In this document: one piece after another, positions 5,081 through 22,403 of the stretch | Layout of the letters: each line of letters begins with the position of its first letter | How positions within the stretch are numbered: the stretch's first letter is position 1 | Assembly (NCBI GenBank): GCA_018061265.1 | Contig: JAGOUM010000013.1 | Location: 1 to 52,877, forward strand | Direction of reading: 5' to 3' | Origin: Rhodoferax sp. | Lineage (GTDB): Bacteria > Pseudomonadota > Gammaproteobacteria > Burkholderiales > Burkholderiaceae_C | DNA: 52,877 bases | Translations under genes and position numbers: made by a program | The notes under the pieces: model-generated | Seen by the model: the letters and a program-made list of their open reading frames with translations, nothing else | What the model was told of the DNA's origin: nothing | The model's database searches: none

Positions 5081-5090
5081 AAAGCCTGCC

Positions 5091-5921: not shown

Positions 5922-6782
5922 ATGGGATACGCAATCAATACCAATGTGATGTCGATCAATGCGCAACGTAATGCAGCCAGCAACAGTTTGTCTTTGGCTA
6001 CGACCATGGCACGCCTGTCATCAGGGCTGCGCATCAACAGTTCAAAGGATGATGCAGCAGGGTTGGCCATTGCCGACCGCATGAGCACCCAGGTGCGCGG
6101 CATGAATGTGGCCATTCGTAATGCCAACGATGCCATTTCTCTGGCACAAACTGCCGAAGGCGGTCTTGCCTCGATGACAGAAATGCTTCAGCGCATGCGT
6201 GAACTGGCAGTTCAAAGCACTAACGTGACCAACACTACAGGCGCAGCTGGCGATATTGCTAAGCTGAACAATGAATTCACACAGCTCGGCGCTGAACTGA
6301 CCCGCATGTTAAGTGCCACCCAATTCAACGGTCAGTCCATTTTGAATGGTACTAACGCTTACGACTTTCAGATTGGAGCTAACTCTGCAGCTGAAAATCG
6401 AATCACGGTTGCATCTGCCTCGATTTCATTGAACGGTATTACCGCCTTTTCTGTCGTCGCCTTTGGTGGTGCCAGTGCCAGCTTGGCGACGGGCGCCGCG
6501 TCGTCCAACTCGGCAGCTATTGGTGCGCTTGATGGTGCCATTGCGGCAGTGGCAGAGCGTCGTGCTACCCTCGGTGCCGTACAAAGCCGCTTCGAATCCA
6601 CGGTGGCCTATCTGCAGAGTTCTGTTGAAAACCAGGCTGCCGCCCGTGGCCGCATCATGGATGCTGACTTTGCAGCTGAAACCGCCAACCTGAGCCGCAC
6701 ACAGATATTGCAGCAAGCCGGCACGGCGATGATTGCGCAGGCCAACCAAATGCCGCAAGGGGTGCTAGCACTACTGCAGTGA
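5922..6782 (+). CDS. fliC: Flagellin FliC, copy 1
   Basis: Filament subunit of 286 residues, with conserved N-terminal D0/D1 (INTNVMSINAQRN, LSSGLRINSSKDDAAGLAI, LQRMRELAVQ) and C-terminal D1/D0 (ATLGAVQSRFEST, LSRTQILQQAGTAM, final LLQ). The variable middle, about residues 165-205, is very short and rich in Ser, Ala and Gly, so the subunit has almost no outer D2/D3 domains and exposed serines are candidate O-glycosylation sites. AGGAG precedes the ATG. It differs clearly from the two tandem copies downstream of fliD and lies alone upstream of it. Confidence 0.96.
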   Translation: MGYAINTNVMSINAQRNAASNSLSLATTMARLSSGLRINSSKDDAAGLAIADRMSTQVRGMNVAIRNANDAISLAQTAEGGLASMTEMLQRMRELAVQSTNVTNTTGAAGDIAKLNNEFTQLGAELTRMLSATQFNGQSILNGTNAYDFQIGANSAAENRITVASASISLNGITAFSVVAFGGASASLATGAASSNSAAIGALDGAIAAVAERRATLGAVQSRFESTVAYLQSSVENQAAARGRIMDADFAAETANLSRTQILQQAGTAMIAQANQMPQGVLALLQ

Positions 6783-6805
6783 TCAGTATCAGTTGGAGCC
6801 AGGAA

Positions 6806-6838
6806 GCATGCGCTCCAATTCGGGCGCATGCCTTTTGT
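6806..6838 (+). terminator. Terminator after fliC1
   Basis: Perfect inverted repeat GCATGCGC (6806-6813) and GCGCATGC (6824-6831) around a 10-base loop, followed by CTTTTGTCTT. It lies 24 bases past the fliC1 stop and would separate the flagellin transcript from fliD. Confidence 0.7.
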
Positions 6839-6943
6839 CTTGGCTCAGTTTAAGGCACTGGTTTGGCAGGCTATCTGCGGCTTTTGATTTGGTGCCACCT
6901 AAGGTATAAAGACGCAAATTCGGATGGTCTATAAGGAGTACCT

Positions 6944-8380
6944 ATGGCAACTATTTCAACACCAGGAGTTGGTAGCGGGCTGGATGTCAAGTCTATTGTT
7001 ACCCAGTTGGTGAATCTTGAGAAGGCGCCGCTTACCTTACTTCAGACCAAAGCCGCCAGCCTGCAAACCAAACTGTCAGCATTTGGTCGCATCAAGTCGG
7101 AACTGGCAAGTTTGCAGGATGCTGCTGCCGCATTGCTGGACAACAGTACTTGGTCAAGCAAAACATTCACCTCCAACAACACCAGTGCAATCACAGGCTC
7201 ATCCAGCGCGACGGCCCTGTCCACTACTTTTTCGGTGCAAGTCAGTGCTCTGGCGCAAGCCCAGTCGGTGCGATCAGTGCCACTGGCCACCGGCGCCGCC
7301 ATAGGGTCTGCGGGGCGGCTGGACATTCAAGGGGGGCAATGGACAGGTAACAGCTTTGGACCAGGTGCTGCAGCGGCGGTCAGTGTCAACATTGCGGCAA
7401 CCGATACCCTCGCTGACATTGCCACCAAGATCAACAGCTCATCGGCTGGGTTGACTGCGGTTGTGGTACGAAGCGGCGCGGAAGATCGACTTATGTTGCG
7501 CGGCAATGGTACGGGCGACGCAGCGGGTTTCAGGATTCAGGCTTTCGATAGCAGCAATGCCGCTATCACCGACGGCACAACAGGGGTTGGCAAGCTGGCT
7601 TACGACTACGGCACCACTGCATTCTATGGAATGACTGCCACGCTGCAAGCGCAAAATGCCTCAATCAGCATTGACGGCATCGCCGTGTCTTCTGCTACCA
7701 ACACGGTGGCAGATGCAGTGCCCGGTATCACGTTGAATCTGCTTGCCACCACGACCACGGCCGCTCAGGTCACCGTTGGTGCAGATAAGCTGACCGCCAA
7801 AACAAAGATCGAAGCTTTTCAGGCTGCCTACAACAAAATTGCTGCATCCTTGGCTGAATTGACTAAATACGACGCTGCGGCAAAGGCGGGTGCGACACTG
7901 CAGGGTGACAGCACAGCGGTTGGCCTGCAGAATGTGCTGAAGTCGATGCTTGGTGCTGTTGGACCCGTAGCCTCAACCTACAAACGGCTTAGCGATGTCG
8001 GGTTGGAGTTGCAGCGCGACGGTTCACTTTCCGTGAACGCCAGCAAACTGGATGCGGCGTTGGGAGATCTTTCCAACCTCAAAACATTCTTTGAAACCGA
8101 CTCGGGCAGCGCCACCACCAATGGGATGGCGCGCCGCATCCGCGACTTTGCCAAGACCGCGGTTGGGCTGGATGGCAGCATTGAAAACAGAAACAAGGCG
8201 TTGACGGCGTCGATCAGCCGCAACAGTAAAGACCAGGACACCGTGAGTGATCGCATCGCGCGCACCGAGGCACGGCTTTACGCCCAGTACAGTCGCCTGG
8301 ACGCCAACATGGCTAGCCTAACCTCACTCGGGAACTTTGTCACGCAGCAGATCGCTCAATGGAACAAGGCAAATAGCTGA
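6944..8380 (+). CDS. fliD: Flagellar filament cap protein FliD
   Basis: Cap protein (HAP2) that sits at the filament tip and folds incoming flagellin. The 478-residue product has the FliD N-terminal domain at about 10-105 (STPGVGSGLDVKSIVTQLV opening) and the C-terminal domain at about 235-465 with the long heptad-rich end (SDRIARTEARLYAQYSRLD). AAGGAG precedes the ATG by six bases. It sits between flagellin genes and is closed by a strong terminator. I found no convincing sigma-28 promoter in 6841-6943. Confidence 0.95.
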   Translation: MATISTPGVGSGLDVKSIVTQLVNLEKAPLTLLQTKAASLQTKLSAFGRIKSELASLQDAAAALLDNSTWSSKTFTSNNTSAITGSSSATALSTTFSVQVSALAQAQSVRSVPLATGAAIGSAGRLDIQGGQWTGNSFGPGAAAAVSVNIAATDTLADIATKINSSSAGLTAVVVRSGAEDRLMLRGNGTGDAAGFRIQAFDSSNAAITDGTTGVGKLAYDYGTTAFYGMTATLQAQNASISIDGIAVSSATNTVADAVPGITLNLLATTTTAAQVTVGADKLTAKTKIEAFQAAYNKIAASLAELTKYDAAAKAGATLQGDSTAVGLQNVLKSMLGAVGPVASTYKRLSDVGLELQRDGSLSVNASKLDAALGDLSNLKTFFETDSGSATTNGMARRIRDFAKTAVGLDGSIENRNKALTASISRNSKDQDTVSDRIARTEARLYAQYSRLDANMASLTSLGNFVTQQIAQWNKANS

Positions 8381-8406
8381 CCGATCGACATCCGGAAATA
8401 CCCAGC

Positions 8407-8439
8407 AAAAGCCCCGTTTATCGGGGCTTTGTCTTTTTC
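8407..8439 (+). terminator. Terminator after fliD
   Basis: Stem AAGCCCCG / CGGGGCTT around a TTTAT loop at 8409-8429, followed by TGTCTTTTTCT. It ends fliD transcription 30 bases past its stop. An identical copy follows fliC2 because the hairpin is part of the duplicated unit. Confidence 0.85.
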
Positions 8440-8458
8440 TGTTGGAGAAACAATTCTC

Positions 8459-8484
8459 TCAACACCCGGTGACCTGGTCGATCA
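8459..8484 (+). promoter_or_regulatory. Weak sigma-28-like site before fliC2
   Basis: TCAA at 8459-8462 and GTCGATCA at 8477-8484 resemble the sigma-28 elements (3 of 4 and 6 of 8) but with 14 rather than 15 bases between them. The start would be near 8491, about 55 bases before the ATG. The same site recurs 1036 bp downstream. It is the best candidate I see, not a firm call. Confidence 0.3.
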
Positions 8485-8546
8485 GTGACCCCGTAAAAAA
8501 ACCGAGTGGATTTAGTCCATCAACTTTGTTTTTTGTGGAGCCATCC

Positions 8547-9419
8547 ATGGCAATGACGATCAACACCAACGTGATGTCGCTCAACGCGCAGCGCAACACG
8601 GCTCAAAATTCTCTGTCTCTTGCCACTACCATGGCCAGGCTGTCTTCAGGCCTGCGAGTCAACAGCTCCAAGGACGATGCAGCCGGTTTGGCCATTGCCG
8701 ACCGAATGAATACCCAGGTTCGTGGTATGAATGTGGCCATACGCAATGCCAATGACGGTATTTCGCTGGCTCAGGTGGCCGAAGGCGGTCTGTCCTCCAT
8801 GAACGAGATGTTGCAGCGAATGCGTGAGTTAGCGGTACAAGCCACCAACTCCACGAACACTACGGGTGCCAATGGAGATATCGCCAAGCTGAGCAATGAA
8901 TACGGCCAACTGGCGCAGGAACTCACCCGAATGTTTTCGGCAACTCAGTTCAATGGTCAAGCGGTTCTTGCCGGAGCGATTGACTACTCCTTTCAAGTAG
9001 GTGCCAACTCGGGTGCGGATAACCGTATCACCATTTCAGCCACCGATATTTCGCTGGCTGCAGGGGCTGCCTCTGCCGGCTTTACCGCAGTAGCCTCAGG
9101 GGGAGCGGCATCAGCGTTGAACTTAACTAGCAATGTAAACAATTCGGCACTTCTGGGCTCGCTGGATACCGCCATTTCGTTGGTCAATGATCGCCGTGCC
9201 ACATTGGGTGCTGTTCAAAGCCGCTTTGAAAACACAATTGCTTACCTGCGAACCTCAGTGGAGAATCAGTCAGCGGCTCGTGGTCGCATCATGGATGCTG
9301 ATTTTGCTGCCGAGACCGCCAATTTGAGCCGCACACAGATCTTGCAGCAAGCGGGCACTGCCATGATTGCCCAAGCCAACCAAGTGCCTCAACAGGTCTT
9401 GCAACTCCTGCAAGGGTAG
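8547..9419 (+). CDS. fliC: Flagellin FliC, copy 2
   Basis: Filament subunit of 290 residues starting MAMTINTNVMSLNAQRN at ATG 8547, six bases after a GTGGAG ribosome site; longer in-frame readings run back into fliD and are not real. It has complete D0/D1 ends and a short Ser/Ala/Gly-rich centre (about 165-210). It differs from fliC1 at many positions but from fliC3 at only two residues near the C-terminus (NQV versus NQL, and final Gly versus Arg). Confidence 0.96.
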   Translation: MAMTINTNVMSLNAQRNTAQNSLSLATTMARLSSGLRVNSSKDDAAGLAIADRMNTQVRGMNVAIRNANDGISLAQVAEGGLSSMNEMLQRMRELAVQATNSTNTTGANGDIAKLSNEYGQLAQELTRMFSATQFNGQAVLAGAIDYSFQVGANSGADNRITISATDISLAAGAASAGFTAVASGGAASALNLTSNVNNSALLGSLDTAISLVNDRRATLGAVQSRFENTIAYLRTSVENQSAARGRIMDADFAAETANLSRTQILQQAGTAMIAQANQVPQQVLQLLQG

Positions 9420-9441
9420 TCAAAAAGCCCTTACTGCTTCT

Positions 9442-10418
9442 CAAAAGCCCCGTTTATCGGGGCTTTGTCTTTTTCTGTTGGAGAAACAATTCTCTCAACA
9501 CCCGGTGACCTGGTCGATCAGTGACCCCGTAAAAAAACCGAGTGGATTTAGTCCATCAACTTTGTTTTTTGTGGAGCCATCCATGGCAATGACGATCAAC
9601 ACCAACGTGATGTCGCTCAACGCGCAGCGCAACACGGCTCAAAATTCTCTGTCTCTTGCCACTACCATGGCCAGGCTGTCTTCAGGCCTGCGAGTCAACA
9701 GCTCCAAGGACGATGCAGCCGGTTTGGCCATTGCCGACCGAATGAATACCCAGGTTCGTGGTATGAATGTGGCCATACGCAATGCCAATGACGGTATTTC
9801 GCTGGCTCAGGTGGCCGAAGGCGGTCTGTCCTCCATGAACGAGATGTTGCAGCGAATGCGTGAGTTAGCGGTACAAGCCACCAACTCCACGAACACTACG
9901 GGTGCCAATGGAGATATCGCCAAGCTGAGCAATGAATACGGCCAACTGGCGCAGGAACTCACCCGAATGTTTTCGGCAACTCAGTTCAATGGTCAAGCGG
10001 TTCTTGCCGGAGCGATTGACTACTCCTTTCAAGTAGGTGCCAACTCGGGTGCGGATAACCGTATCACCATTTCAGCCACCGATATTTCGCTGGCTGCAGG
10101 GGCTGCCTCTGCCGGCTTTACCGCAGTAGCCTCAGGGGGAGCGGCATCAGCGTTGAACTTAACTAGCAATGTAAACAATTCGGCACTTCTGGGCTCGCTG
10201 GATACCGCCATTTCGTTGGTCAATGATCGCCGTGCCACATTGGGTGCTGTTCAAAGCCGCTTTGAAAACACAATTGCTTACCTGCGAACCTCAGTGGAGA
10301 ATCAGTCAGCGGCTCGTGGTCGCATCATGGATGCTGATTTTGCTGCCGAGACCGCCAATTTGAGCCGCACACAGATCTTGCAGCAAGCGGGCACTGCCAT
10401 GATTGCCCAAGCCAACCA
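9442..10418 (+). repeat. Tandem repeat unit 2 carrying fliC3
   Basis: Second copy of the 1036-bp unit, identical to 8406-9382 by eye through the hairpin, leader and all but the last 37 bases of the flagellin gene. Identity stops abruptly inside the last dozen codons, where the third-codon changes cluster, which suggests gene conversion or crossing-over between pre-existing flagellin genes rather than a simple recent copy. Confidence 0.93.
9443..9475 (+). terminator. Terminator after fliC2
   Basis: Same hairpin as the one after fliD (AAGCCCCG / CGGGGCTT with a following T-rich tract), placed 25 bases past the fliC2 stop. It should separate fliC2 and fliC3 into single-gene transcripts. Confidence 0.85.
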
Positions 10419-10455
10419 GTTGCCTCAACAAGTCTTGCAGCTCCTGCAGCGGTAA
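9583..10455 (+). CDS. fliC: Flagellin FliC, copy 3
   Basis: Third flagellin, 290 residues, identical to copy 2 except for the C-terminal ANQL and final Arg. The leader, ribosome site and start are those of the repeat unit. Unlike copies 1 and 2 it lacks a clear terminator: CCTTC/GGAAGG arms at about 10464-10482 have no T tract, so some read-through into the glycosyltransferase gene 124 bp downstream is possible. Confidence 0.96.
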   Translation: MAMTINTNVMSLNAQRNTAQNSLSLATTMARLSSGLRVNSSKDDAAGLAIADRMNTQVRGMNVAIRNANDGISLAQVAEGGLSSMNEMLQRMRELAVQATNSTNTTGANGDIAKLSNEYGQLAQELTRMFSATQFNGQAVLAGAIDYSFQVGANSGADNRITISATDISLAAGAASAGFTAVASGGAASALNLTSNVNNSALLGSLDTAISLVNDRRATLGAVQSRFENTIAYLRTSVENQSAARGRIMDADFAAETANLSRTQILQQAGTAMIAQANQLPQQVLQLLQR

Positions 10456-10492
10456 CCTCGGCACCTTCTCCGGTTCGGAAGGCGGACGATCG

Positions 10493-10538
10493 TCACAAAC
10501 GTCTATCTTGTGATGTGTGTGAGCAGGTGAAAATAGAC
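10493..10538 (+). promoter_or_regulatory. Nested inverted repeats upstream of the glycosylation block
   Basis: Two overlapping dyads lie in the 124-bp gap: TCACAA (10493-10498) with TTGTGA (10508-10513), and GTCTAT (10501-10506) with ATAGAC (10533-10538). They may mark a regulator-binding site or promoter for the downstream operon. No clean -35/-10 pair is visible, so the function is open. Confidence 0.3.
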
Positions 10539-10579
10539 ACTAGAGAAAATGCTCCAAGGCTGCAGACCATGAGGGTTAC

Positions 10580-13500
10580 ATGATTCCATTTGCATCCACC
10601 CACCAGCCATATTACGTATATGCCGCGCCGGGCTTTTCAGCGGGAAAAGAGTCGTCCATTCAAATGCATGTGCTTTGCTCCATGCTGAATTACGCTGGGT
10701 TGCAGGCTTACATTGCCGCAGCAGACGGTCTGGATGGTCGCTTTTGGACTCCCATGCTGACGCCTCAGGTGATGGCGGCACACCACTTGGCCAAGAAAAA
10801 GCCAATTTCTATTGTTCCCGCCAAGCAAGTGGGAAGGCAGGATTACCCTGGTTTGGTCGCGGGCCACTTGTCTGAATTTGATATCACCGATGAAACTTGG
10901 GCCGCGCCAGGGCGAGTCCGTATTTACCCAGCCGTCGTTGTGGGCAAAGCGGTCCCTGAGCCTGCGGCTGATCTCTGCCTGTCGTTACCTTGGGTGGACA
11001 GCCAGTTGTTTCACTTACCGCCCACTGGCTCGAAACGGGAAGGGGAACTGGTTTGGAGCGGTAACCTGCTGAAGCTGGGCAAGCAATTGCGAGATGAACA
11101 TGCCACACTGCCTGATTTGTCACCTTTCGCGCCCAACCCAATGACTGCAGACGCAAGGGCGAATGCCTTGTGTGAAGCAGAGTGCGTTTACTGCTATGGT
11201 ACAGGTGCAATCACTACAGAAGCGCGCCTGTGTGGGTGCAAGGTGATCTACATTCCCACTGATTGGCAACTTCATGCAGTGCCAAATCACCCCATTGCCA
11301 CTTTGGGTGCGTTCTTTGAAAACTTCGATCAGCCCATCAATACCCGTGAGGGTGAGCAGAGTTTTTTTCATCAGTATCAAAACCATGTGGCAAGCGCGCA
11401 ACACTCCTTGTCAGAGTTTATAGCGATTTCTCAGAGGCTTGCCGCTGCCCAGGTTTTTGAGGAAGCGTGGAGCGATGCGGATGTTGACAGCCTTGGGGAT
11501 CTGGTTACCTCGACACCAGAAGTCAAGGCCGCCAGGGCTGACCGCAGGATGTACAAAAGCCTGTCTGACACCTATGTTGGCTGGAAGGCCAAGACAAGCC
11601 CGAGGGAAGTCTATGCGGACATTGCTGCTCAGTACATTTCGGCCAGGAGTATCCAGCAACCTGCGGTGCATGTTTATGCGCAGGGATGGAGCATGGATGA
11701 CCTTGCAAATGTGCTGGACGACCTGGCACTTGGATGGCTTCAGCCTTCGGTCATTTGTATTCACGCAGATCATGCTTGCCCGGTTGACCCATCTGACTTG
11801 GGTGGCCAGGTTGAGTGGCACGACAAGCCGGGCGGGTTTCAGCACCCTATTGCCAAAGCTGCAACATCGTCAGTTGAGTGGTGTGTATTGATAGACGCGG
11901 GTACCCGCCTTGAGCCTTACACACTTTACGAGCTGCTGAAGGTCAGCCGGTCATCTGGCGACGCTGTGGTGGCCTACGGGGCAGACGACATTCGTCAGCG
12001 CGATGGATCAGAAATACCCAATCTCAAGGGTGGGGGGAACGTGGAACTGCTTCGCCATACCAATTATCTGGGTGGGGTTGTGGCGGTTAAGGAGTCAGCA
12101 TGGTCAGGCATGCCAGATCGGCATTTGTACAGCACTGCCTATCGGGTCGCGCTCGAATACTCGGCGTTGAGGGCTGGTGCGGCCCTTTTGTACGTTGATA
12201 AAGTAATTTCGCACCAACCCCTACGTCAACACATAGGGGCAGAAACCGAAGAATTCAATGTTGTCCGCGACGTTTTGTCCGAGCATTGGCCCGGCACCAA
12301 GGTGTTGGCCGACGAAATCTCGGGTTGCTGGAAGGTGACGTATCCCAAAACTACTGAGCGGGTGACCGCTGTGGTTCCCACTGGGAATCAGTTGGGGTAT
12401 CTGGAGGCGCTATTAAAATCCATCAATCGGTTAGAGAGCGAGGGGATCGACGAAATTGTTCTGGTAACGCGACCGGAAGACTTGGTGAAAACACTGGATC
12501 AGATTGGCGACAGGTACTCGCACCTTGACATTCGATGCATCGCGGGGCCAACTGAGGCATTCAACCTTGGTGCTTACCTGAATGCGGCAATAAAAGTCGC
12601 CAGTCATTCATTGATCTTGGTATGTGATGATGATGTCGAGTTTCTCGCGGGGGGCACCACAGCGACGATAGCATCTTATTTTGTTGACTCGCACGTGGCA
12701 GTGGTGTCACCTCGCCAAGTGCTTCAGGTGGAGCAAAAACCACTACTCACCGGTGGGCCTTGCCTGGTTGGCAATGATGCCTGCCTGGTGCAGTACAACG
12801 GTCAACAGCAGTGGCTTGCCGAGCGAGGTTTCCTCAACCGGCTGCAAATGGCACAGGATGTCGCCGGTGTGCAAGGGTCATGCTACATGTTGCGCAAGTC
12901 GGCACACTGTGACGTGAACGGATTTAATGAATCCGATATGCGGACTTTTTGCACCGCCACAGATTTTGGCTACAAACTGATTCGTGCTGGGTACAGGATT
13001 GTGTGGACTCCTGATGCGAGTTTTCACCACACAGGTGGCGCAACACTGCGCTCCTTAAGGAAAGATCCCGATACGCAGCTGTTGCTGCACAAGCAATGGA
13101 TTGGTGAACGGGATGAGTTGTCTAGAAAGTGGCTGCGCTTTGCCTCTTCGATTGATCTGTACAGTAAGCATCTGTCGCGGGAAATTCCGTACGGTCTGGA
13201 GCCATCCATGGTCATTGAGTGGGACATCCGTAGCAAAGACCGGCCTCGGGTACTGGCGCAACCAATTTCAAGCGGATCAGGGCAATACAGGGTGATTGAG
13301 CCACTTGACGCGATTCAGTCGGCCAGTCTGGCTGAAACCGCGTTGATTTTTCCTGATTCCTCAAAAAAGCGTCGAATCGTCTCTGTAACCGACATCGCAA
13401 TCGCCAAACCCGACAGGGTGTTGTTACAACATTCAATCTCAGACGAGGACATCAGCAATCTAAAAAACATCAGGAAAATCTTGCCAGATACATTTGTCAT

Positions 13501-14242
13501 TCAATTGATGGATGATCTGGTATCTGATCTGCCAAGCTCCCATCCCAACTTTAATTATGGGATGCGCGAAGGCCACACCCGAACCGTTGAAGCCGTCCGG
13601 CTCTGCAACAGGTTGATTGTGTCGACACAGCCTCTCGCAGATTACTATAAAAGCTACTGTGACGATATCGTGGTTGTACCCAATGCGTTGGATGAAAGAA
13701 TGTGGGGCCATCATTTCAAACCGGTGAAGGAGCGCGCACGGCTCCGAATCGGCTGGGCGGGCGCGGCCCAACACCAGGGCGACTTGACGCTCATCACCGA
13801 CGTACTGAAGCACTTTGCGGACAAGGTTGATTGGATTTTTATGGGCATGTGCCCGGATGTTTTGCGTCCAATGATCAAGGAGTTTCACTCTTTTGTTTCC
13901 TACTCAGACTATCCCGCCAAGCTGGCAACCCTTGATCTTGATATTGCCATAGCCCCGTTGGAAGACAACGCATTCAATCAGTGCAAAAGCAACCTGAGAT
14001 TGCTTGAGTATGGTGCTATGGGGTGGCCCGTGGTTTGCTCGGATGTGTATCCTTTTCGCACAGGTAAACCGCCTGTGATAAGTTGCGCCAACAATGTTGA
14101 TGATTGGATTGATGCTATTTCACTGCTTATCAATGATTTTTCATTACGTCAAGCAATGGGAGTGAAGTTGAATGATTGGTTGAAACGCAACTACATGCTT
14201 TCGAATATCGTCACTAAATGGAATACAGCCATCTTCAGCTAA
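10580..14242 (+). CDS. Large multidomain glycosyltransferase, probable flagellin-glycan transferase
   Basis: A 1220-residue protein without signal peptide or membrane helices. The first ~330 residues look like a degenerate GT-B-type module, about 345-590 like a GT-A-like region, about 595-850 like a family-2 GT-A domain with a DDD motif at residues 683-685 and the later GFNESDMRTFCTATDFGYKL stretch, and about 890-1220 like a GT-B module with WAGAAQHQGDL, EFHSFVSYSDYP and a CKSNLRLLEYGAMGWPVV donor site (Cys1135 onward). It starts at ATG 10580 after GAGGG. Its place between flagellin genes and fliST suggests transfer of sugars to flagellin; domain borders are estimates. Confidence 0.8.
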   Translation: MIPFASTHQPYYVYAAPGFSAGKESSIQMHVLCSMLNYAGLQAYIAAADGLDGRFWTPMLTPQVMAAHHLAKKKPISIVPAKQVGRQDYPGLVAGHLSEFDITDETWAAPGRVRIYPAVVVGKAVPEPAADLCLSLPWVDSQLFHLPPTGSKREGELVWSGNLLKLGKQLRDEHATLPDLSPFAPNPMTADARANALCEAECVYCYGTGAITTEARLCGCKVIYIPTDWQLHAVPNHPIATLGAFFENFDQPINTREGEQSFFHQYQNHVASAQHSLSEFIAISQRLAAAQVFEEAWSDADVDSLGDLVTSTPEVKAARADRRMYKSLSDTYVGWKAKTSPREVYADIAAQYISARSIQQPAVHVYAQGWSMDDLANVLDDLALGWLQPSVICIHADHACPVDPSDLGGQVEWHDKPGGFQHPIAKAATSSVEWCVLIDAGTRLEPYTLYELLKVSRSSGDAVVAYGADDIRQRDGSEIPNLKGGGNVELLRHTNYLGGVVAVKESAWSGMPDRHLYSTAYRVALEYSALRAGAALLYVDKVISHQPLRQHIGAETEEFNVVRDVLSEHWPGTKVLADEISGCWKVTYPKTTERVTAVVPTGNQLGYLEALLKSINRLESEGIDEIVLVTRPEDLVKTLDQIGDRYSHLDIRCIAGPTEAFNLGAYLNAAIKVASHSLILVCDDDVEFLAGGTTATIASYFVDSHVAVVSPRQVLQVEQKPLLTGGPCLVGNDACLVQYNGQQQWLAERGFLNRLQMAQDVAGVQGSCYMLRKSAHCDVNGFNESDMRTFCTATDFGYKLIRAGYRIVWTPDASFHHTGGATLRSLRKDPDTQLLLHKQWIGERDELSRKWLRFASSIDLYSKHLSREIPYGLEPSMVIEWDIRSKDRPRVLAQPISSGSGQYRVIEPLDAIQSASLAETALIFPDSSKKRRIVSVTDIAIAKPDRVLLQHSISDEDISNLKNIRKILPDTFVIQLMDDLVSDLPSSHPNFNYGMREGHTRTVEAVRLCNRLIVSTQPLADYYKSYCDDIVVVPNALDERMWGHHFKPVKERARLRIGWAGAAQHQGDLTLITDVLKHFADKVDWIFMGMCPDVLRPMIKEFHSFVSYSDYPAKLATLDLDIAIAPLEDNAFNQCKSNLRLLEYGAMGWPVVCSDVYPFRTGKPPVISCANNVDDWIDAISLLINDFSLRQAMGVKLNDWLKRNYMLSNIVTKWNTAIFS

Positions 14243-14254
14243 AGGGAGACTATC

Positions 14255-15076
14255 TTGATAAATTACTGTATCTCACATAAGCCATTGATGTTTAGGAATA
14301 ACTCTCAGCTTAGGCATATTCTTTTAGGAGATGAATTACTTCCAAAAAAAGAGCAATTTCTACCATCAGAATCTATCCATCACATTTCCGAAATAGCACA
14401 AGATCTTGATTATCTGCATTGTATGTTGGCGGGTTCATCAGGTACTTTTGCGATTGCCAGATTGCTTCGCGGAACACATGATGAATGGGATGAAACAACC
14501 TCAGTTGTGATTAATCAATATCGAAAGTTCATGGCCAAAGATACGCTTGGCATGAAATCAATCAACTACCCAGGTATGGTGATGGTTCCTGTGGATAAAG
14601 CAATTGATATTGATGTTTTCGAAATACAGGCGAACATAAAGACTCCTTTTTTGTTACCCTCACCCATTGTGGTGGGAAACACGTATAACCAGTACTGTAC
14701 TGCCCATAGAGGTCAAGATTTTCTGAGATATATCGCCATTGCCATCGACTTAGGTATTATTGATCACAAACAGGCTGGCCAAATATTTAATTCAGAAATG
14801 ATGATTCCAGGGGGGGTGGAGTTTGGGATTTATCCCGTTGCCATTTTTCTTGACGTCGTTGAAAAACTCGAGAAAATTTGTTTAGAATTTGCGAAGAATA
14901 ATTTACCATCTTCACTTGACAGATACCAGAGAAGAGCATTGGCCTTTTGCAATGAGAGAATGGGAAGTTACCTTCTGCTATTGACGCTGAATCAGATTTG
15001 TGGCGCTGAGATTTCCCCTGAGTGGTTTGGCTATATGCATACTGTCTCGGACAACCTGACATACTACGGCACCTGA
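14255..15076 (+). CDS. Unknown protein, possible glycosyltransferase-like, AT-rich
   Basis: I do not recognise this 273-residue protein with certainty. It starts with TTG 14255, five bases after AAAGGGAGA; no ATG is suitably placed. It has no membrane segment. The pattern [18 protein letters not shown], a central [13 protein letters not shown] and a C-terminal [17 protein letters not shown] faintly resembles the ends of DUF4422-type glycosyltransferases, which is a weak guess. Its base composition is clearly more AT-rich than its neighbours, suggesting separate acquisition. It ends one base before the cytidylyltransferase, so it is part of the glycan operon. Confidence 0.7.
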
Positions 15077-15077
15077 A

Positions 15078-15848
15078 ATGAAAGCTGTCATCCTTGCGGG
15101 TGGCTTGGGAACCCGGATTTCTGAAGAATCCACCGTCCGCCCCAAGCCCATGGTTCAAATCGGAGGCATGCCCATTTTGTGGCACTTGATGAAGGTGTTT
15201 TCGGCTCACGGTATCAATGACTTTGTGATCTGTTGTGGCTACAAGGGCTATATCATCAAGGAGTACTTTGCCAACTACTTCCTGCACATGTCCGATGTCA
15301 CATTTGACATGCAAAACAACCATATGGAAGTTCACCAGCGCAAAGCCGAACCATGGAAGGTGACCCTGGTGGATACTGGCGAAAACTCGATGACCGGTGG
15401 GCGTTTAAAACGCGTCGCTCGCTTTGTGGAAAACGAGACCGCTTTTTGCATGACTTATGGTGATGGGCTGAGCAACCACAACATTGCCGAATCCATCAAG
15501 TTCCACCACAGCCACGGAAAGCTGGCCACCGTCACAGCCGTTCAACCTCCCGGGCGCTATGGCGCTTTGGACATGATTGGCAGCAGTGTCAGCGGGTTTG
15601 TCGAGAAGCCCAAAGGCGAAGGTGGCTGGATCAACGGGGGGTTTTTTGTGCTATCGCCTCAGGTGCTGAACCTGATCGACAACGACAACACCAGCTGGGA
15701 ACTGGAGCCAATGGATACATTGGCGAAAAGTGGGCAGTTGGAGGCCTATACGCACAGCGGGTTCTGGCAGCCCATGGATACCTTGCGCGAGAAAAACCAG
15801 CTTGAAGATCTGTGGATATCTGGGAAAGCACCGTGGAAAGTCTGGTAG
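15078..15848 (+). CDS. rfbF: Glucose-1-phosphate cytidylyltransferase
   Basis: Makes CDP-glucose from CTP and glucose-1-phosphate, the first step towards CDP-linked deoxysugars. The 256-residue protein opens with the nucleotide-binding signature [20 protein letters not shown], carries the family's [11 protein letters not shown] and [10 protein letters not shown] (metal-binding Asp) stretches, and ends with [11 protein letters not shown]. The length is that of RfbF/AscA enzymes. It is followed at once by the 4,6-dehydratase that uses its product. Confidence 0.95.
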
Positions 15849-15862
15849 TCCAATCCAGTCAG

Positions 15863-16939
15863 ATGAGGACACCCTCGCCCGGGTTCTGGGGCGGGAAAAA
15901 AGTGCTACTGACTGGGCACACTGGTTTTAAGGGAAGCTGGTTGGTCATGTGGCTTCAGCAATTGGGGGCCGAGGTGGTGGGTATGGCCCTGCCTCCAGCC
16001 ACTTTCCCCAGTCTGTTTGAACTGGCGAGCGTGGGCAGCATGCTCGACAGCCGCGCGGTAGACATTCGTGATGCGCAGCTGGTGGCGCATCACGTCAAAC
16101 AAATCAACCCGGACGTGGTGTTGCACCTGGCTGCACAGGCTCTGGTGCGGGAGAGTTACCGTCAGCCTGTGGACACGTTCGCCTCAAATGTGTTGGGCAC
16201 TGCCCACGTGCTGGACGCCCTTCGGCACTGTGACCGCACACGTTCTGTGGTGGCGGTGACCACTGACAAGGTGTATCAGAACAACGAGTGGCACCATCCC
16301 TACCGCGAAAGCGATGTGCTGGGCGGGCACGACCCATACAGCGCCAGCAAAGCGGCGTGTGAGCTGGTCATCAACAGTTACAGAAGTTCTTTTTTTGCAG
16401 CAAAAAATGTAAGCCTGTCAAGCGCTAGGGCAGGAAATGTGATCGGAGGTGGGGATTGGTCTGCTGAGCGCTTGTTGCCTGACGCCGCCAAGGCGTGGGG
16501 GCAAGGCATGGCACTTGAAATCCGCAGCCCGGAATCGGTTCGACCCTGGCAGCATGTGCTGGAGCCACTGCTGGCCTACCTGGTGCTGGCCGAAGAAACC
16601 TGGCACAACCCTGCCCATGCAGCGGCCTACAACTTTGGTCCACTGCCCCATGAAGCAGCCACCGTGCGGCAAGTGATGGAATTGGCGCAACCCCACTGGC
16701 CTGGTGCACAGCTGATCTTTGCAGATCACACGCGAGGCCCACACGAGGCGGGCTTGCTCACTTTGGACACGGCGAAGGCTCGTTCCGTCCTGGGTCTGGC
16801 ACCACGCTGGTCACTCGCGCAGGCCGTTGAGCGGACTGTGAGTTGGTATCACCGCCAAAGGCACGGTGAAGATGCCGCTAGGTTGTGCCGCCTGGACTTG
16901 CTGGCATTTACCTCCCCGTTTGCAGAGCCGCAATCATGA
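15863..16939 (+). CDS. rfbG: CDP-glucose 4,6-dehydratase
   Basis: Converts CDP-glucose to CDP-4-keto-6-deoxyglucose. It is an extended SDR enzyme with TGHTGFKGSWL as NAD-binding loop, the DKVYQNNEW segment with the catalytic Asp-Lys-Val, and YSASK as the Tyr-x3-Lys pair. The RPWQHVLEPL stretch is typical of this subgroup and argues against the dTDP enzyme. I take ATG 15863 (358 residues), 14 bp after the cytidylyltransferase stop; a GTG at 15833 inside rfbF is an alternative. The stop overlaps the next ATG. Confidence 0.93.
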   Translation: MRTPSPGFWGGKKVLLTGHTGFKGSWLVMWLQQLGAEVVGMALPPATFPSLFELASVGSMLDSRAVDIRDAQLVAHHVKQINPDVVLHLAAQALVRESYRQPVDTFASNVLGTAHVLDALRHCDRTRSVVAVTTDKVYQNNEWHHPYRESDVLGGHDPYSASKAACELVINSYRSSFFAAKNVSLSSARAGNVIGGGDWSAERLLPDAAKAWGQGMALEIRSPESVRPWQHVLEPLLAYLVLAEETWHNPAHAAAYNFGPLPHEAATVRQVMELAQPHWPGAQLIFADHTRGPHEAGLLTLDTAKARSVLGLAPRWSLAQAVERTVSWYHRQRHGEDAARLCRLDLLAFTSPFAEPQS

Positions 16940-17499
16940 GCGCACAACTAAGCATTCATCCAACGCCATTGGTCGGGTTAAGCGTGGTCAGGCGCCATGC
17001 TCAGGCAGATGCACGCGGGTCCTTCACGCGGCTTTTCTGCAGCGAAACCCTGTCCGCAGCAGGTTGGCCAGGTGCAGTGGTGCAGGTCAACCACAGCCTC
17101 AGTCGACAACTCGGTACAGTGCGTGGGCTGCATTTTCAGCGGCCACCTCACCAAGAATGGAAACTGGTGACTTGCGTTCAAGGCCTGGTTTGGGACGTTG
17201 CCGTGGATGTCCGTACCCACTCTCCAACCTATTTGAAATGGCACGCCGAAACTTTGAGTGCCGACAACGGGCTGGCCATGCTGATTCCAGCGGGGTTCGC
17301 TCATGGCTTTCAGACCCTGAGCAACAACGTGGAACTGGTGTATTGCCATTCCCATGCCTATTACCCCGCAGCTGAAGGTGGACTGAATCCAAATGACCCC
17401 ACTGCGGCCGTGCAATGGCCATTGCCGGTGTCTCAGTGGTCAGAGCGCGACAGGCAATTGCTCACCGTGGACCAGGGTTTTGCAGGAGTTGAACTGTGA
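16936..17499 (+). CDS. RmlC-like sugar-nucleotide 3,5-epimerase (probably CDP-4-keto-6-deoxyhexose)
   Basis: A 187-residue cupin related to dTDP-4-dehydrorhamnose 3,5-epimerase. Visible are the early RGSFTRLF, the active-site His in VRGLHFQ, the second His region LIPAGFAHGFQ and the GGLNPNDP block with the catalytic Asp. Because it lies in a CDP-glucose operon its likely substrate is CDP-4-keto-6-deoxyglucose, epimerised at C3, C5 or both. That is inferred from context. It begins with an ATGA overlap on rfbG and ends with a GTGA overlap on the methyltransferase gene. Confidence 0.88.
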   Translation: MSAQLSIHPTPLVGLSVVRRHAQADARGSFTRLFCSETLSAAGWPGAVVQVNHSLSRQLGTVRGLHFQRPPHQEWKLVTCVQGLVWDVAVDVRTHSPTYLKWHAETLSADNGLAMLIPAGFAHGFQTLSNNVELVYCHSHAYYPAAEGGLNPNDPTAAVQWPLPVSQWSERDRQLLTVDQGFAGVEL

Positions 17500-18737
17500 A
17501 ATGCAGGCATTGCGGCAGTGAGCTGCACCTGAACTTTCTGGATCTGGGCAGCGCTCCGCCATCCAACGCCTACCTGTCCCATGAGGCCCTGTCGGCCCCA
17601 GAAACCTGGTACCCGCTGCGGCTGCTGGTGTGCGAAACCTGTTGGCTGGTGCAAACCGAGGATCACGCCGGGCGAGAACAACTGTTCACACACGAGTATG
17701 CGTACTTCAGCTCGATGTCCACATCGTGGCTGACACATGCGCAACAGTACGTGAGCGACATGGTACAACGGCTGGGTCTTGGTCCGAGCAGTACCGTCGT
17801 GGAGGTCGCTGCCAACGATGGCTACCTGCTCCAATACGTGGCGCAGTCTGGCATTCCCTGCTATGGCATAGAACCGACGGCCAGTACTGCGGCTGCGGCC
17901 AAAGTCAAGGGTCTGGACATTCTGGAGAGCTTCTTTGGCGAGAAACTGGCCACACAGCTGGCCACCAAAGGCAGACAGGCCGACCTGATGGTGGCCAACA
18001 ACGTGTTGGCACACGTGCCAGACATTAACGACTTTGTGGCCGGGTTTGCCACTCTGCTCAAGCCTCAAGGTGTGGCCACTTTTGAGTTCCCACACCTGAT
18101 GCGGATGATGGAGCATAACCAGTTTGACACCGCGTACCACGAGCACTATTCGTACCTGTCGCTTACCGCAGTGCGGAGGATCTTTGTTGCTAACGGCCTG
18201 ACTGTGTTTGATGTTCAGGAACTGCCGACACATGGTGGGAGTCTGCGTGTGCTGGCCCAGCGAAGCGACTCAGGAGCGCGGACGATTCAGGGCAGCGTTG
18301 CAGCAATTCTGTCTGCGGAAACTCAGGCTGGATTGGCAAGGCCTGACGTTTATAAAGAGTTTCAGTCCAAGGCTGAGTCCGTAAAAAATGGGTTGTTGGC
18401 CTTTTTGCTAGAAGCCAAACAAAAAGGACTGCGCGTGGGGGCATACGGTGCTGCCGCCAAGGGCAACACCTTGCTGAACTTTGCCGGTGTGCGACCTGAC
18501 CTGCTGCCTTATGTGGTAGATCGCAGCCCAGGCAAGCAGGGCAAATTTATGCCCGGCAGCCGGATACCCATTGTGCAAGAAGACTATTTGTGGACTGACC
18601 GCCCCGATTTGGTGGTGGTCCTGCCGTGGAACTTGCTGGACGAAGTATCTACCCAGCTTCAAGGTATTCGCGCTTGGGGAGGGCGGTTTGTGGTGTCAGT
18701 CCCTGAACTGCGGATCCTGGAGTCTGCAAGCTCATGA
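17496..18737 (+). CDS. Sugar-nucleotide C-methyltransferase
   Basis: A 413-residue SAM-dependent enzyme of the NovU/TcaB9 type, which adds a methyl branch to C3 of 4-keto-6-deoxysugars. Domains in order: N-terminal zinc module with Cys3, Cys6, Cys46 and Cys49; SAM-binding Rossmann domain with VVEVAANDGYLLQ at about 105; the family's YHEHYSYLSL active-site stretch; and a C-terminal domain with GAYGAAAKGNTLL and KQGKFMPGSRIPI. It starts with GTG 17496 in a 4-base overlap. Together with rfbF/rfbG it predicts a branched CDP-sugar. Confidence 0.9.
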   Translation: MKCRHCGSELHLNFLDLGSAPPSNAYLSHEALSAPETWYPLRLLVCETCWLVQTEDHAGREQLFTHEYAYFSSMSTSWLTHAQQYVSDMVQRLGLGPSSTVVEVAANDGYLLQYVAQSGIPCYGIEPTASTAAAAKVKGLDILESFFGEKLATQLATKGRQADLMVANNVLAHVPDINDFVAGFATLLKPQGVATFEFPHLMRMMEHNQFDTAYHEHYSYLSLTAVRRIFVANGLTVFDVQELPTHGGSLRVLAQRSDSGARTIQGSVAAILSAETQAGLARPDVYKEFQSKAESVKNGLLAFLLEAKQKGLRVGAYGAAAKGNTLLNFAGVRPDLLPYVVDRSPGKQGKFMPGSRIPIVQEDYLWTDRPDLVVVLPWNLLDEVSTQLQGIRAWGGRFVVSVPELRILESASS

Positions 18738-19624
18738 GAGTTGTGTTGACTGGTGCCAGCGGCTTTATTGGCCGCTACGTGCTCGACGAACTGAACGCGG
18801 CTGGCATCGAAACGATCACCTTTGGTCGAAATGTTCCTGACAACGCAACATCTGCGAAACAACATATTCAATGCGATTTATTACGGGACCCGTGCTGGAA
18901 AGACCTGTTGGCTCAAGCCAAGGGAACCCACTTACTTCACTGCGCATGGTACGCCGAGCATGGAAAGTTCTGGACATCATCCGAAAACAACCGGTGGGTG
19001 GATGCCTCCGTGAAGCTTGCGGAAGCCTTTTGCCAGCAAGGAGGGCAACGGATTGTTATGGTCGGGACCTGTGCCGAGTACGACTGGGAATACGGGTGGT
19101 GCAGCGAGGCTAGCACTCCGTTGAACGGTGCCACACTGTATGGATGTGCCAAAGACGCTACGCGGCGGCTAACCGGTTGTCTTTGCAGGCAGAACAAGGT
19201 CGACTTTGCTTGGGGTCGAGTATTTTCCCCGTTCGGCTATGGCGAAAACGAACAGCGGCTCATCCCCGCCTTGATTCGCGCTTTGCGTGGTGAGATTCCG
19301 CCGATGGGCATCAACTCGGATGTATATCGCGATTTTTTGCACGCCAGTGACGTAGCTCGTGGCTTGGTGGCATTGTTGCAGAGCCATGCGCATGGGGCTT
19401 ACAACATCAGTTCGGGGCAACCCACTTCGCTGGCCGACCTGGCCACAATGTTGGCTCAACTGCTGGATGTTGATGTTTCCCTCGTGCTATCCATGCCACC
19501 CGGTCGACGAGACAATGTCCCACTCCTGGTGGGGAATAATAGGCGGCTGTTGGACTTGGGCTGGCAACCCGCCATGAACTTACATGCTGCCTTGGAACGC
19601 ACCTTGGCCGAAGGCTTCAAATGA
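18734..19624 (+). CDS. NAD(P)-dependent sugar-nucleotide reductase/epimerase (SDR)
   Basis: A 296-residue extended SDR enzyme with TGASGFIGRYV as the nucleotide loop and YGCAK as the Tyr-x3-Lys catalytic pair. The SPFGYGENEQRLIP and DFLHASDVARG segments are common to sugar-nucleotide reductases and epimerases. In this operon it most likely reduces the C4 keto group after epimerisation and C-methylation to give the finished CDP-deoxysugar; the stereochemistry cannot be read. It is coupled on both sides by ATGA overlaps. Confidence 0.88.
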   Translation: MRVVLTGASGFIGRYVLDELNAAGIETITFGRNVPDNATSAKQHIQCDLLRDPCWKDLLAQAKGTHLLHCAWYAEHGKFWTSSENNRWVDASVKLAEAFCQQGGQRIVMVGTCAEYDWEYGWCSEASTPLNGATLYGCAKDATRRLTGCLCRQNKVDFAWGRVFSPFGYGENEQRLIPALIRALRGEIPPMGINSDVYRDFLHASDVARGLVALLQSHAHGAYNISSGQPTSLADLATMLAQLLDVDVSLVLSMPPGRRDNVPLLVGNNRRLLDLGWQPAMNLHAALERTLAEGFK

Positions 19625-20796
19625 CACCTCACAACTGTCCGATTTGTAATGGAAATTCACTGACTCCATTCCTCAATCGCTTGGAAGTGCCCGTACACCA
19701 GAACCTGGTCTTGGGTAGCAAGATTGCGGCGCAGTCGGTTGCGCGTGGGGACCTTGACATGGCAGTATGTGCGGAATGCGGGTTTGTCTTCAATCGCCGG
19801 TTCGACATGTCGCGACTTGCCTATGGTGAAGGATATGACAACACCCAGTCTTGCTCGCCGTACTTCGATACTTATCTGGATCATTTGGCGCACGACCTGG
19901 TCAATGTCCAAAGCGTGCGAGATTGCACGGTGGTGGAAGTGGGGTGTGGCAAGGGCCAGTTTCTGGAAAAGCTGGTGAATATACCCGGATCACGGATCAT
20001 AGGTTTTGGATTCGATCCGAGCTACATTGGACCCGAATCCACTTGCTCCGGGCAAGCTCACTTCAGGCGCTGCTACTATGACGATACCTGTTCCGATGTA
20101 CAGGCAGACGTGGTGATATGTCGGCACGTCATCGAACATGTACCAGCACCGCTTAGCTTGCTACATGCAATTAGATCAGCGCTTGAAAATTCACCGGATG
20201 CACGCGTGTTTTTCGAAACGCCATGTGTTGAATGGATACTGGATAACCGAGTTCTTTGGGACTTCTTTTATGAGCACTGCTCGTTGTTCAGTGTCAGTTC
20301 CATCGTTCGGGCATTTGAAGAAACGGGTTTCACCGTGTCCAAGGTTGACCATATTTTTGGCGGTCAGTACCTTTGGTTGGAGGCAAGAGTCGGCACCGCA
20401 GCGTCGGCGCGAACCGACCGTGGCCAAGCTGTCTATGCTCAAGCCTTAAACTATGGACAATGCGAGGAGGCTATGCGGCAAACATGGAAAATTCGAATGG
20501 ACGGTTTGCGTGCTGAGGGCGCGGTCGCACTCTGGGGGGCCGGCGCCAAAGGAGCAACGTTGGCAAATCTGATTGATCCCGGAGCGACCTTGATTGACTG
20601 CGTTGTGGACCTAAATCCCAACAAACAAGGTAAGTTTATTCCCGGAAGTGCACACAGAATAGTGCCTCCAGCCGAATTGAGCAGCCGCAAAATCATGAAC
20701 GCACTTTTGATGAATCCCAACTACCGGCAAGAAAATGAGCACTTGCTTGCGTCGTCCGGTATTTCAACCAAGCTAGTAGATTGGAGCAACCTATGA
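19621..20796 (+). CDS. Second C-methyltransferase-like protein
   Basis: A 391-residue SAM-dependent protein built like the one encoded at 17496-18737. It has zinc-type cysteine pairs (NCPIC near 6-9 and CAEC near 50-53), a SAM site VVEVGCGKGQFLEKL, an EHCSLFS motif in the place of the EHYSYLS motif, and a C-terminal ALWGAGAKGATLA plus NKQGKFIPGSAHRI. The two are divergent paralogues rather than a recent copy. It may methylate another carbon or another sugar of the same glycan. It is coupled by ATGA overlaps to both neighbours. Confidence 0.83.
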   Translation: MTPHNCPICNGNSLTPFLNRLEVPVHQNLVLGSKIAAQSVARGDLDMAVCAECGFVFNRRFDMSRLAYGEGYDNTQSCSPYFDTYLDHLAHDLVNVQSVRDCTVVEVGCGKGQFLEKLVNIPGSRIIGFGFDPSYIGPESTCSGQAHFRRCYYDDTCSDVQADVVICRHVIEHVPAPLSLLHAIRSALENSPDARVFFETPCVEWILDNRVLWDFFYEHCSLFSVSSIVRAFEETGFTVSKVDHIFGGQYLWLEARVGTAASARTDRGQAVYAQALNYGQCEEAMRQTWKIRMDGLRAEGAVALWGAGAKGATLANLIDPGATLIDCVVDLNPNKQGKFIPGSAHRIVPPAELSSRKIMNALLMNPNYRQENEHLLASSGISTKLVDWSNL

Positions 20797-21557
20797 GACT
20801 CAGTCTGGACACCGAGGCGCGGACCTTGACTCTTGAAGACACTGACCATATTACCCAGTTGGACCTCTATTCCAGGGAGGCGTTTGAAGCCATTTCGCGG
20901 TATTGGGTGCGAGTTGGGTGGAATCAAAAGTACCAGTACACGTTCAGTTGGATGGGGCGTCCGGTCATTCAGCTACCAGAAGACATGATCCGGATGCAGG
21001 AGGTCATTTTTGAAGTTAAGCCAGACGTCATTATCGAAACCGGGGTTGCTCACGGCGGCTCACTGATTTTTTACTCAAGCCTTTGCAAGGCGATGGGTAA
21101 GGGACGGGTCATTGGAATTGATATTGAAATTCGCCCGCACAATCGCGTGGCCATCGAGGCGCACCCCTTAAGTGATCGAATCACGTTGGTAGAGGGCAGC
21201 TCAACCGCACCAGACATCGTGCAGAAGGTGGGTGCCATGGTTCAGCCCAATGAGATTGTTCTGGTGATTCTTGACTCCAACCACACCTATGAACATGTGC
21301 TCAACGAATTGAACGCCTATGGCAAATTGGTCAGTAGGGGGTCTTATATTGTTGCTACCGACGGGATCATGTTTGATTTGGCTGACGTCCCACGCGGCCA
21401 CTCCGGGTGGAGCACTGACAATCCGATGTGTGCGGCCGCAGACTTTGCAACGGCGAATCCCGAGTTCACCATTGAGCAACCAAGTTGGCCGTTCAATGAA
21501 AGCGAGTTGACGAAAAACATCACCCATTGGCCAGGCGCATGGTTGCGTCGTCAATGA
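20793..21557 (+). CDS. CmcI-like methyltransferase (cephalosporin-hydroxylase family)
   Basis: A 254-residue Rossmann protein of the CmcI family, named after a cephalosporin enzyme but including the mycobacterial rhamnosyl O-methyltransferase Rv2959c. Visible features are IIETGVAHGGSLIFYSSL as SAM loop, VIGIDIEIRPHN, and the metal-type LDSNHTYEHVL (Asp-x2-His). The start is ATG 20793, overlapping the upstream stop; a TTG at 20781 would only add four residues. O-methylation of the flagellin glycan is the likely job, by context. The gap to fliS is 44 bp. Confidence 0.85.
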   Translation: MRLSLDTEARTLTLEDTDHITQLDLYSREAFEAISRYWVRVGWNQKYQYTFSWMGRPVIQLPEDMIRMQEVIFEVKPDVIIETGVAHGGSLIFYSSLCKAMGKGRVIGIDIEIRPHNRVAIEAHPLSDRITLVEGSSTAPDIVQKVGAMVQPNEIVLVILDSNHTYEHVLNELNAYGKLVSRGSYIVATDGIMFDLADVPRGHSGWSTDNPMCAAADFATANPEFTIEQPSWPFNESELTKNITHWPGAWLRRQ

Positions 21558-21601: not shown

Positions 21602-22051
21602 ATGGACGATAAAGAATCTAACAAAACCGTTGATTTAAATGCCATGTACCTTCCAATCCACAGCAGAGCAGCCTCATCGTATTCACGGGTCGGGGTTGAG
21701 ACCAGTGTGCTGAGCGCGAGCCCCCACGAACTGATCAGTTTACTGTTTAATGGGGTATTTGAAACCCTTTCTTTGGCGCAATGTGCGATTGAGCAAAAAG
21801 ACATTGCCACCAAAGGAAAGGCCATTTCCAAGGCGACGCGTCTGATCTCCGAAGGGTTAAAAGGGGGGTTGAGTCCCGACGGTGGTGAATTGACGGTTCA
21901 GTTGACCTCGCTTTACGATTATTGCGTTGGTCGGCTGATGCATGCCAACTTGAAGAACGATACTGCCGCCATTGAGGAAGTGGTCAAGTTGATTCAACCA
22001 ATTGCATCCAGCTGGCAGGCGATCCGCAGTGATGTGACAGGGGGAGTTTGA
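21602..22051 (+). CDS. fliS: Flagellin export chaperone FliS
   Basis: Chaperone that binds the flagellin C-terminus before export. It carries the family core YSRVGVETSVLSASPHELISLLFNG and a helical bundle. The ATG at 21602 has a good GAGGG ribosome site and gives 149 residues, 14 more than usual; the conventional start equivalent is the internal Met at 21644 (MYLPIHSRAASSY), which has no ribosome site. It is followed by fliT after one base and closes the flagellar block begun by fliC and fliD. Confidence 0.94.
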   Translation: MDDKESNKTVDLNAMYLPIHSRAASSYSRVGVETSVLSASPHELISLLFNGVFETLSLAQCAIEQKDIATKGKAISKATRLISEGLKGGLSPDGGELTVQLTSLYDYCVGRLMHANLKNDTAAIEEVVKLIQPIASSWQAIRSDVTGGV

Positions 22052-22052
22052 T

Positions 22053-22403
22053 ATGTCAACTGGATATGAAAATTCCCCGATTGTGTCTGGCCATATTGGA
22101 GCAGCGAGTTGCACGCTGATCGACTACTACAAAGCCATCGAAGACAGCAGTGCCAAGATGCTCGACGCCGCCCGTTCTGAAGACTGGGAGCAGGTGGTGC
22201 GATTTGAAGGTGCCTGCGCGGTCCTGATCGAGCAGTTACGGGCGCGTGCCCATACCGAACAGCTGATGCCAGAGCAGCGCGCCGAAAAGACCCGCATCAT
22301 GCAACGCATTTTGAACAACGACGCGCAAATTCGTTACCTGGCTGAGCCCTGGCTCAGCCATTGCGAGCAGAACATGGACGGTCAGCGTCAGTATCTTCAC
22401 TGA
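22053..22403 (+). CDS. fliT: FliT-like flagellar chaperone
   Basis: A small helical protein of 116 residues directly behind fliS. FliT proteins chaperone the cap protein FliD and in some bacteria restrain FlhDC. Sequence conservation in this family is poor, so the call leans on size, helical character and position; the LIDYYKAIEDSSAKMLDAARSEDW opening is typical of the betaproteobacterial members. A terminator follows. Confidence 0.82.
   Translation: MSTGYENSPIVSGHIGAASCTLIDYYKAIEDSSAKMLDAARSEDWEQVVRFEGACAVLIEQLRARAHTEQLMPEQRAEKTRIMQRILNNDAQIRYLAEPWLSHCEQNMDGQRQYLH

Follow-up and report, generated by a model that had tools for sequence, protein, structure and literature searches.

Flagellin glycans influence filament assembly and host recognition, and several described systems lie close to the locus reported here. 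A branched CDP-sugar of Azotobacter vinelandii, CDP-6-deoxy-3-C-methyl-2-O-methyl-4-O-(O-methylglycolyl)-L-aldohexose (vinelose), is said to have been described by Okuda, Suzuki and Suzuki (J Biol Chem, 1967-68). Methyl branches at C3 are also introduced by the antibiotic-sugar 3-C-methyltransferases KijD1 and TcaB9, which serve dTDP-sugars of natural products. In the available text of De Maayer and Cowan 2016, genes for CDP-4-keto-6-deoxyglucose are placed in one of 42 enterobacterial island types (type 23, four strains), so that CDP sugars at flagellin are not new as an idea (PMC4875605). The flagellin of Pseudomonas syringae bears methylated deoxy sugars; in B728a, according to the accessible part of the report, these form a chain with units of 203, 160 (methylated deoxyhexose) and 146 Da, and strains other than B728a have fgt1 and fgt2 upstream of fliC (PMC3927599). 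The accessible portion of PMC8987622 does not mention a branched CDP sugar on flagellin, and a search of the open-access literature retrieved neither a C-methyl branch at flagellin nor its spread nor a link to vinelose.

The window analysed here, a 52,877-nucleotide stretch of a Rhodoferax sp. genome, carries nine plus-strand reading frames at 10580-21557, all of them open, bounded by tandem flagellin genes on one side and fliS-fliT on the other (Table 1). Glycosyltransferase and sugar-nucleotide genes lie together in this island, among flagellar genes. The gene order and coordinates of the first-pass annotation hold, as does the flagellar setting it described, with flagellins and fliS-fliT as flanks; the 4-base overlaps that it had seen at nearly every junction from rfbF onward were found at five of six (ATGA or GTGA at rfbG/epimerase, epimerase/CMT, CMT/SDR, SDR/MT2 and MT2/CmcI), whereas rfbF and rfbG are separated by 14 bases, provided that the ATG at 15863 is the start of rfbG. 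We read the locus as a flagellin glycosylation island that, judging from its gene families, would make a vinelose-type 6-deoxyhexose, activated with CDP and bearing both C-methyl and O-methyl groups (probability about 0.7). The predicted sugar would share the CDP carrier, the 6-deoxy position, the 3-C-methyl branch and O-methylation with the sugar reported from A. vinelandii. Enterobacterial type 23 islands resemble the window in combining a flagellin locus with CDP-glucose pathway genes, but they belong to other hosts and, in the available text, no C-methyltransferase is named among their genes (PMC4875605). The Fgt1/Fgt2 system of P. syringae likewise places glycosyltransferases upstream of fliC, and its flagellin carries methylated deoxy sugars, whereas its modified viosamine is described, in the accessible part of the report, as the product of dTDP-viosamine chemistry encoded in a separate island (PMC3927599).

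Table 1. Features of the flagellar island and its flanks, in window positions.
Feature	Position	Strand	Remarks
flagellin 1	5922..6782	+	286 aa, possible acceptor; ends read from translation
fliD	6944-8380		between flagellin 1 and flagellin 2
flagellin 2	8547..9419	+	290 aa, possible acceptor
flagellin 3	9583..10455	+	290 aa, possible acceptor
GT1220, multidomain glycosyltransferase	10580..14242	+	GT2 domain ~594-824
U273, predicted glycosyltransferase, 273 aa	14255..15076	+	fold of WbbM N-terminal domain
rfbF, glucose-1-phosphate cytidylyltransferase	15078..15848	+	TIGR02623 462.5 bits
rfbG, CDP-glucose 4,6-dehydratase	15863..16939 (ORF opens 15812)	+	TIGR02622 459.8 bits
RmlC-like 3,5-epimerase	16936..17499 (ORF opens 16885)	+	PF00908 188.5 bits
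CMT, KijD1/TcaB9-type sugar C-methyltransferase	17496..18737	+	PDB 5t64 238 bits
SDR, predicted 4-ketoreductase	18734..19624	+	PF01370 117.3 bits
MT2, divergent sugar C-methyltransferase family member	19621..20796	+	PF08484 49 bits
CmcI-like, predicted sugar O-methyltransferase	20793..21557 (ORF opens 20781)	+	PF04989 256.7 bits
fliS and fliT, island flank	21602..22403	+	fliS from 21602 by family match; fliT from 22053 by position

RfbF and RfbG score well above the equivalog cut-offs of their families (300.25 and 278.45 bits, respectively), which supports the CDP pathway proposed at the outset; together they would yield CDP-4-keto-6-deoxyglucose. Other RfbG matches in the rest of the genome are 25-27% identical. 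A CDP-3,6-dideoxyhexose pathway was considered and set aside: RfbH (E1) has no match in the genome assembly (89.53% complete), in agreement with the earlier prediction that this branch is missing. The epimerase, which at 150.8 bits falls just under the cut-off of the dTDP equivalog (155.75), is expected to flip C3/C5 and so to give an L-sugar. CMT carries the domains PF08421, PF13489 and PF08484 and matches the solved sugar 3-C-methyltransferases, KijD1 and TcaB9 types included, over its whole length, with conservation of a Y-x-E-H stretch that we take to be catalytic in this family; the C-methyl branch foreseen from the sequence is thereby reinforced, and the methyl would probably be added at C3. 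Unlike its antibiotic relatives, CMT stands in a CDP setting. An alternative that we consider improbable is that CMT acts at C5, or before epimerisation, and that the product is a noviose-like gem-dimethyl sugar or a D-sugar rather than a 3-C-methyl L-sugar. The same family includes the C5-methyltransferase NovU, noviose being C5-methylated, and the solved relatives in our comparison are 3-C-methyltransferases or TcaB9, with no C5 enzyme among them; nevertheless, the best matches of CMT bear the name 3-C-methyltransferase, and the CDP-sugar of A. vinelandii is reportedly 3-C-methylated.

Downstream of CMT, both a 4-ketoreductase and an O-methyltransferase family are represented by family match: the SDR would reduce C4, and the CmcI-like protein, a member of the CmcI/rhamnosyl O-methyltransferase family, would supply O-methyl groups, perhaps together with MT2. 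By its domains (PF13489 and PF08484) and its match to PDB 5t6b (69.5 bits), MT2 is a distant, divergent relative of the sugar C-methyltransferase family, in which E-H is kept and the preceding Tyr is replaced by Phe. The first-pass annotation had counted a single C-methyltransferase and two methyltransferases in all; two related proteins of the former kind are present, CMT and MT2, and three methyltransferases follow the dehydratase gene.

At the upstream end of the island lie two candidate transferases. GT1220 combines its GT2 domain with a GT4-like C-terminal match below the cut-off; it is 39% identical to a protein of locus L048 over 1223 aa, and its C-terminal parts show 27-35% identity to proteins encoded close to the cassette in Pseudomonas. 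Pfam searches up to E 10 gave no match for U273 in any of the five family members tested, and its structural model, of moderate confidence, adopts the fold of the N-terminal glycosyltransferase domain of WbbM (PDB 6u4b) at 16% identity. The WbbM domain is presumably CAZy GT111; U273 is likely a glycosyltransferase, GT111/DUF4422-like in fold. The assignment of the transferase role to GT1220 alone needs correction: U273 probably has such a function too, and its occurrence follows that of the sugar cassette more closely than GT1220 does. Family searches of the nine genes, U273 included, gave no flippase or polymerase match, which points to attachment before export; U273 and GT1220 would build the glycan and transfer it to the flagellins, the putative acceptors.

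Over U273, GC content drops to 39.8% (14000-14999; every other 1-kb block between 5000 and 25000 has 50-61%), as if this gene had a separate origin. One could take this drop, together with the conserved Tyr lost in MT2, for signs that the island is non-functional or transitional, but its nine open frames, their tight overlaps and the orthologs found in the same order elsewhere make that highly unlikely.

Flagellins 2 and 3 differ at 2 of 290 residues, and 1010 of 1023 bases are identical when 150 bases upstream are counted; they are a recent tandem duplication. The flagellin centre had been called Ser-rich, which overstates the case: S+T amounts to 22% in the middle versus 18% overall, a slight enrichment.

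To place the island among its relatives, CMT was searched against 250 genomes of the family, giving 31 strong matches besides the window (≥46% identity), and wide stretches were taken for 30 of them, one on a 4.9-kb contig being excluded. Among the 24 loci with CMT at ≥54% identity, rfbG, the epimerase and CMT occurred together in 23, with rfbF as well in 20, and a flagellin lay inside the examined stretch in 13, a lower bound because several stretches stop at contig ends. The six loci of lower identity included the core once and a flagellin in no case. In L048 (genome G038), the order flagellin, GT1220, U273, rfbF, rfbG, epimerase, CMT, SDR, MT2, CmcI, fliS, fliT departs from that of the window by two additional ORFs between U273 and rfbF. 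In L056, the flagellin was recognised by a match of 35%, and flhA and flhB adjoin it. Close MT2 copies (57-62%) were present in L048, L056, L077, L083, L092 and G272, the last beside flagellin with the window's own set (SDR 52%, MT2 59%, CmcI 76%). Two further genomes from the genus of the window have no such CMT; not every member of that genus, then, carries the island. In L051 (11152-12277), rfbG is split over two reading frames.

Beyond the family, the best 80 of at least 591 matches at named loci were taken, so that the resulting counts are not frequencies; two of the 80 duplicate family loci (L106 = L049, L142 = L052). The full core was found in 67 of these best 80, and a flagellin within 10 kb in 13. 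For 17 Pseudomonas loci outside these 13, whole genomes were searched, and all 17 have a FliC-like protein on the contig of CMT, at a distance of 11.8-16.0 kb; a second flagellin-N protein (open frame of 522-570 aa), by its length probably FlgL, lay on the other side of CMT in 16 and on another contig in the 17th. In Pseudomonas gingeri D8001, CMT occurs a second time (G701 C23:129616-130836), on a contig other than the flagellar one. We labelled 44 loci as flagellar on a quick tree built from 105 CMTs (45 if G272 is included, where the flagellin is on a neighbouring stretch); this distribution requires at least 10 state changes, and 42 of the 44 fall within one set of 63 CMTs (SH-aLRT 97). 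The rfbF-rfbG-epimerase-CMT cassette is a recurring module. Flagellar decoration with a CDP branched sugar, at first thought unusual, has to be seen differently: many Burkholderiaceae, as well as Pseudomonas and Azotobacter, carry the module at flagellar loci, and to judge by the counts for family loci (13 of 24) and Pseudomonas genomes (all 17), CDP-branched sugars look common there.

The comparison with relatives that the first-pass annotation had proposed speaks for the most part in favour of a flagellar role, through L048 and the flagellin-bearing loci. Part of what that annotation had named as refuting evidence does occur in relatives: 11 of the 24 family loci had no flagellin within the examined stretch, and some of them lie beside other surface systems. 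Among the best 80 of at least 591 named loci, 67 had none in the stretch, though 17 of these 67 have one 12-16 kb away. L058 contains three glycosyltransferase genes and no flagellin, L041 adjoins an ABC transporter and a GT2 gene, and in L036 (409-14610) the cassette, with U273, is found beside type I secretion genes (ABC, HlyD, OEP) and a gene whose product has ALTTAQ repeats, a hint that a secreted repeat protein is glycosylated there. Plasmid p1 (51.7 kb) of Desulfolutivibrio sulfodismutans bears the cassette at 4893-13928 (L178; CMT 72% identical), and no flagellar gene is among the 16 features of its incomplete gene table; plasmid carriage at this identity indicates that the cassette may move between phyla. 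These flagellin-less loci and the type I secretion neighbour imply that the sugar is not exclusively flagellar, and it looks like a general currency often used by flagellar islands. They also lend weight, as do the LPS and O-antigen terms attached to rfbF and rfbG in another record's annotation, to the possibility that the sugar made in the window goes chiefly into LPS or a different surface polysaccharide or protein, and that the flagellar location of the genes is incidental. We regard this as unlikely, because a flagellar position is seen repeatedly, in Burkholderiaceae, in Pseudomonas and in Azotobacter, alongside differing glycosyltransferases, and because family searches of the nine genes in the window gave neither a flippase nor a polymerase.

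The relatives also differ in the fate expected for the 4-keto group of the sugar. We scored an SDR within 8 kb and a DegT aminotransferase within 3 kb (≥50%) at 104 loci, namely the 24 family loci and the best 80 of at least 591 named ones. An SDR was present in 66 (13 and 53, respectively), a DegT in 22 (4 and 18) and both in none (Fisher p 1e-12 if loci are treated as independent, which they are not, being related sequences with two loci counted twice). Such mutual exclusion would be expected if both enzymes act on the same 4-keto group. On the CMT tree, at least 15 changes of C4 state are needed to account for 21 DegT rows, and such recurrent exchange at a single place in the cassette agrees with two possible outcomes for the 4-keto group, alcohol or amine. 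DegT replaces the SDR at the flagellar loci L037, L039 and L049 (= L106) and at L119, L126, L129, L139, L141 and L143 of Pseudomonas, for which 4-amino-3-C-methyl sugars on flagellin are predicted. CmcI-family genes are nearby in 14 of the 24 family loci and in 60 of the best 80 of at least 591 named loci.

The link to vinelose was pursued through the alternative nitrogenase gene vnfG, which is present in 7 of 398 genomes in the family of a Pseudomonas genome. One of the seven, G311, is a single contig of 5,366,370 bases whose VnfD is identical over 474 residues to PDB 5n6y, a structure that presumably comes from A. vinelandii, and we take it as a genome of that species. CMT was found in two of the seven genomes, the same two that have an above-cut-off CDP-glucose dehydratase, and gave no match in the other five. 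In G311, the only such dehydratase and the only such CMT share one cluster beside flagellin, comprising rfbF, rfbG, epimerase, CMT, a Hexapep acyltransferase, SDR, CmcI, a PhyH dioxygenase and a TylF methyltransferase; its end abuts a GT41-GT2 protein and flagellin, and flhA-flhB lie at the far side. These gene families fit what the CDP-sugar reported from A. vinelandii would need: acetylation by Hexapep, hydroxylation by PhyH and O-methylation by TylF might together produce the methoxyacetyl ester.

The cluster and the window thus share the rfbF-rfbG-epimerase-CMT core beside flagellin and differ in their finishing genes, Hexapep, PhyH and TylF in the former, MT2 and U273 in the latter. The CmcI of the window stands apart from the A. 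vinelandii type, in a clade of its own with eight members (100/100, stem 2.25), and a family search found no Hexapep, PhyH or TylF among its nine genes. The A. vinelandii form of the pathway was on these grounds rejected for the window, whose sugar is probably not vinelose itself. From the common core, the distinct CmcI clade and the additional MT2, we expect the product to be a sister compound to vinelose, namely a 3-C-methyl-6-deoxyhexose that carries one or two O-methyl groups and has a residue mass of 174.09 or 188.10.

A broader proposition, to which we give even odds, is that the cassette is the source of CDP-vinelose-type sugars and constitutes a widespread module for placing 3-C-methyl-6-deoxyhexoses on flagellin and on certain further surface proteins. 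In this view, C4 would be either reduced or aminated, finishing by methyl and acyl groups would be lineage-specific, and the A. vinelandii ester would derive from Hexapep, PhyH and TylF. If so, genes would be assigned to a CDP-branched sugar described as a chemical, with a hint as to why A. vinelandii makes vinelose; Burkholderiales and Pseudomonas would share a common class of flagellin glycan readable by mass; and CDP-linked C-methyl sugars would extend the enzyme set for branched sugar synthesis. Finally, L046 and the Achromobacter dolens locus L074 each combine close copies of Hexapep, PhyH and TylF, and both stretches contain a flagellin.
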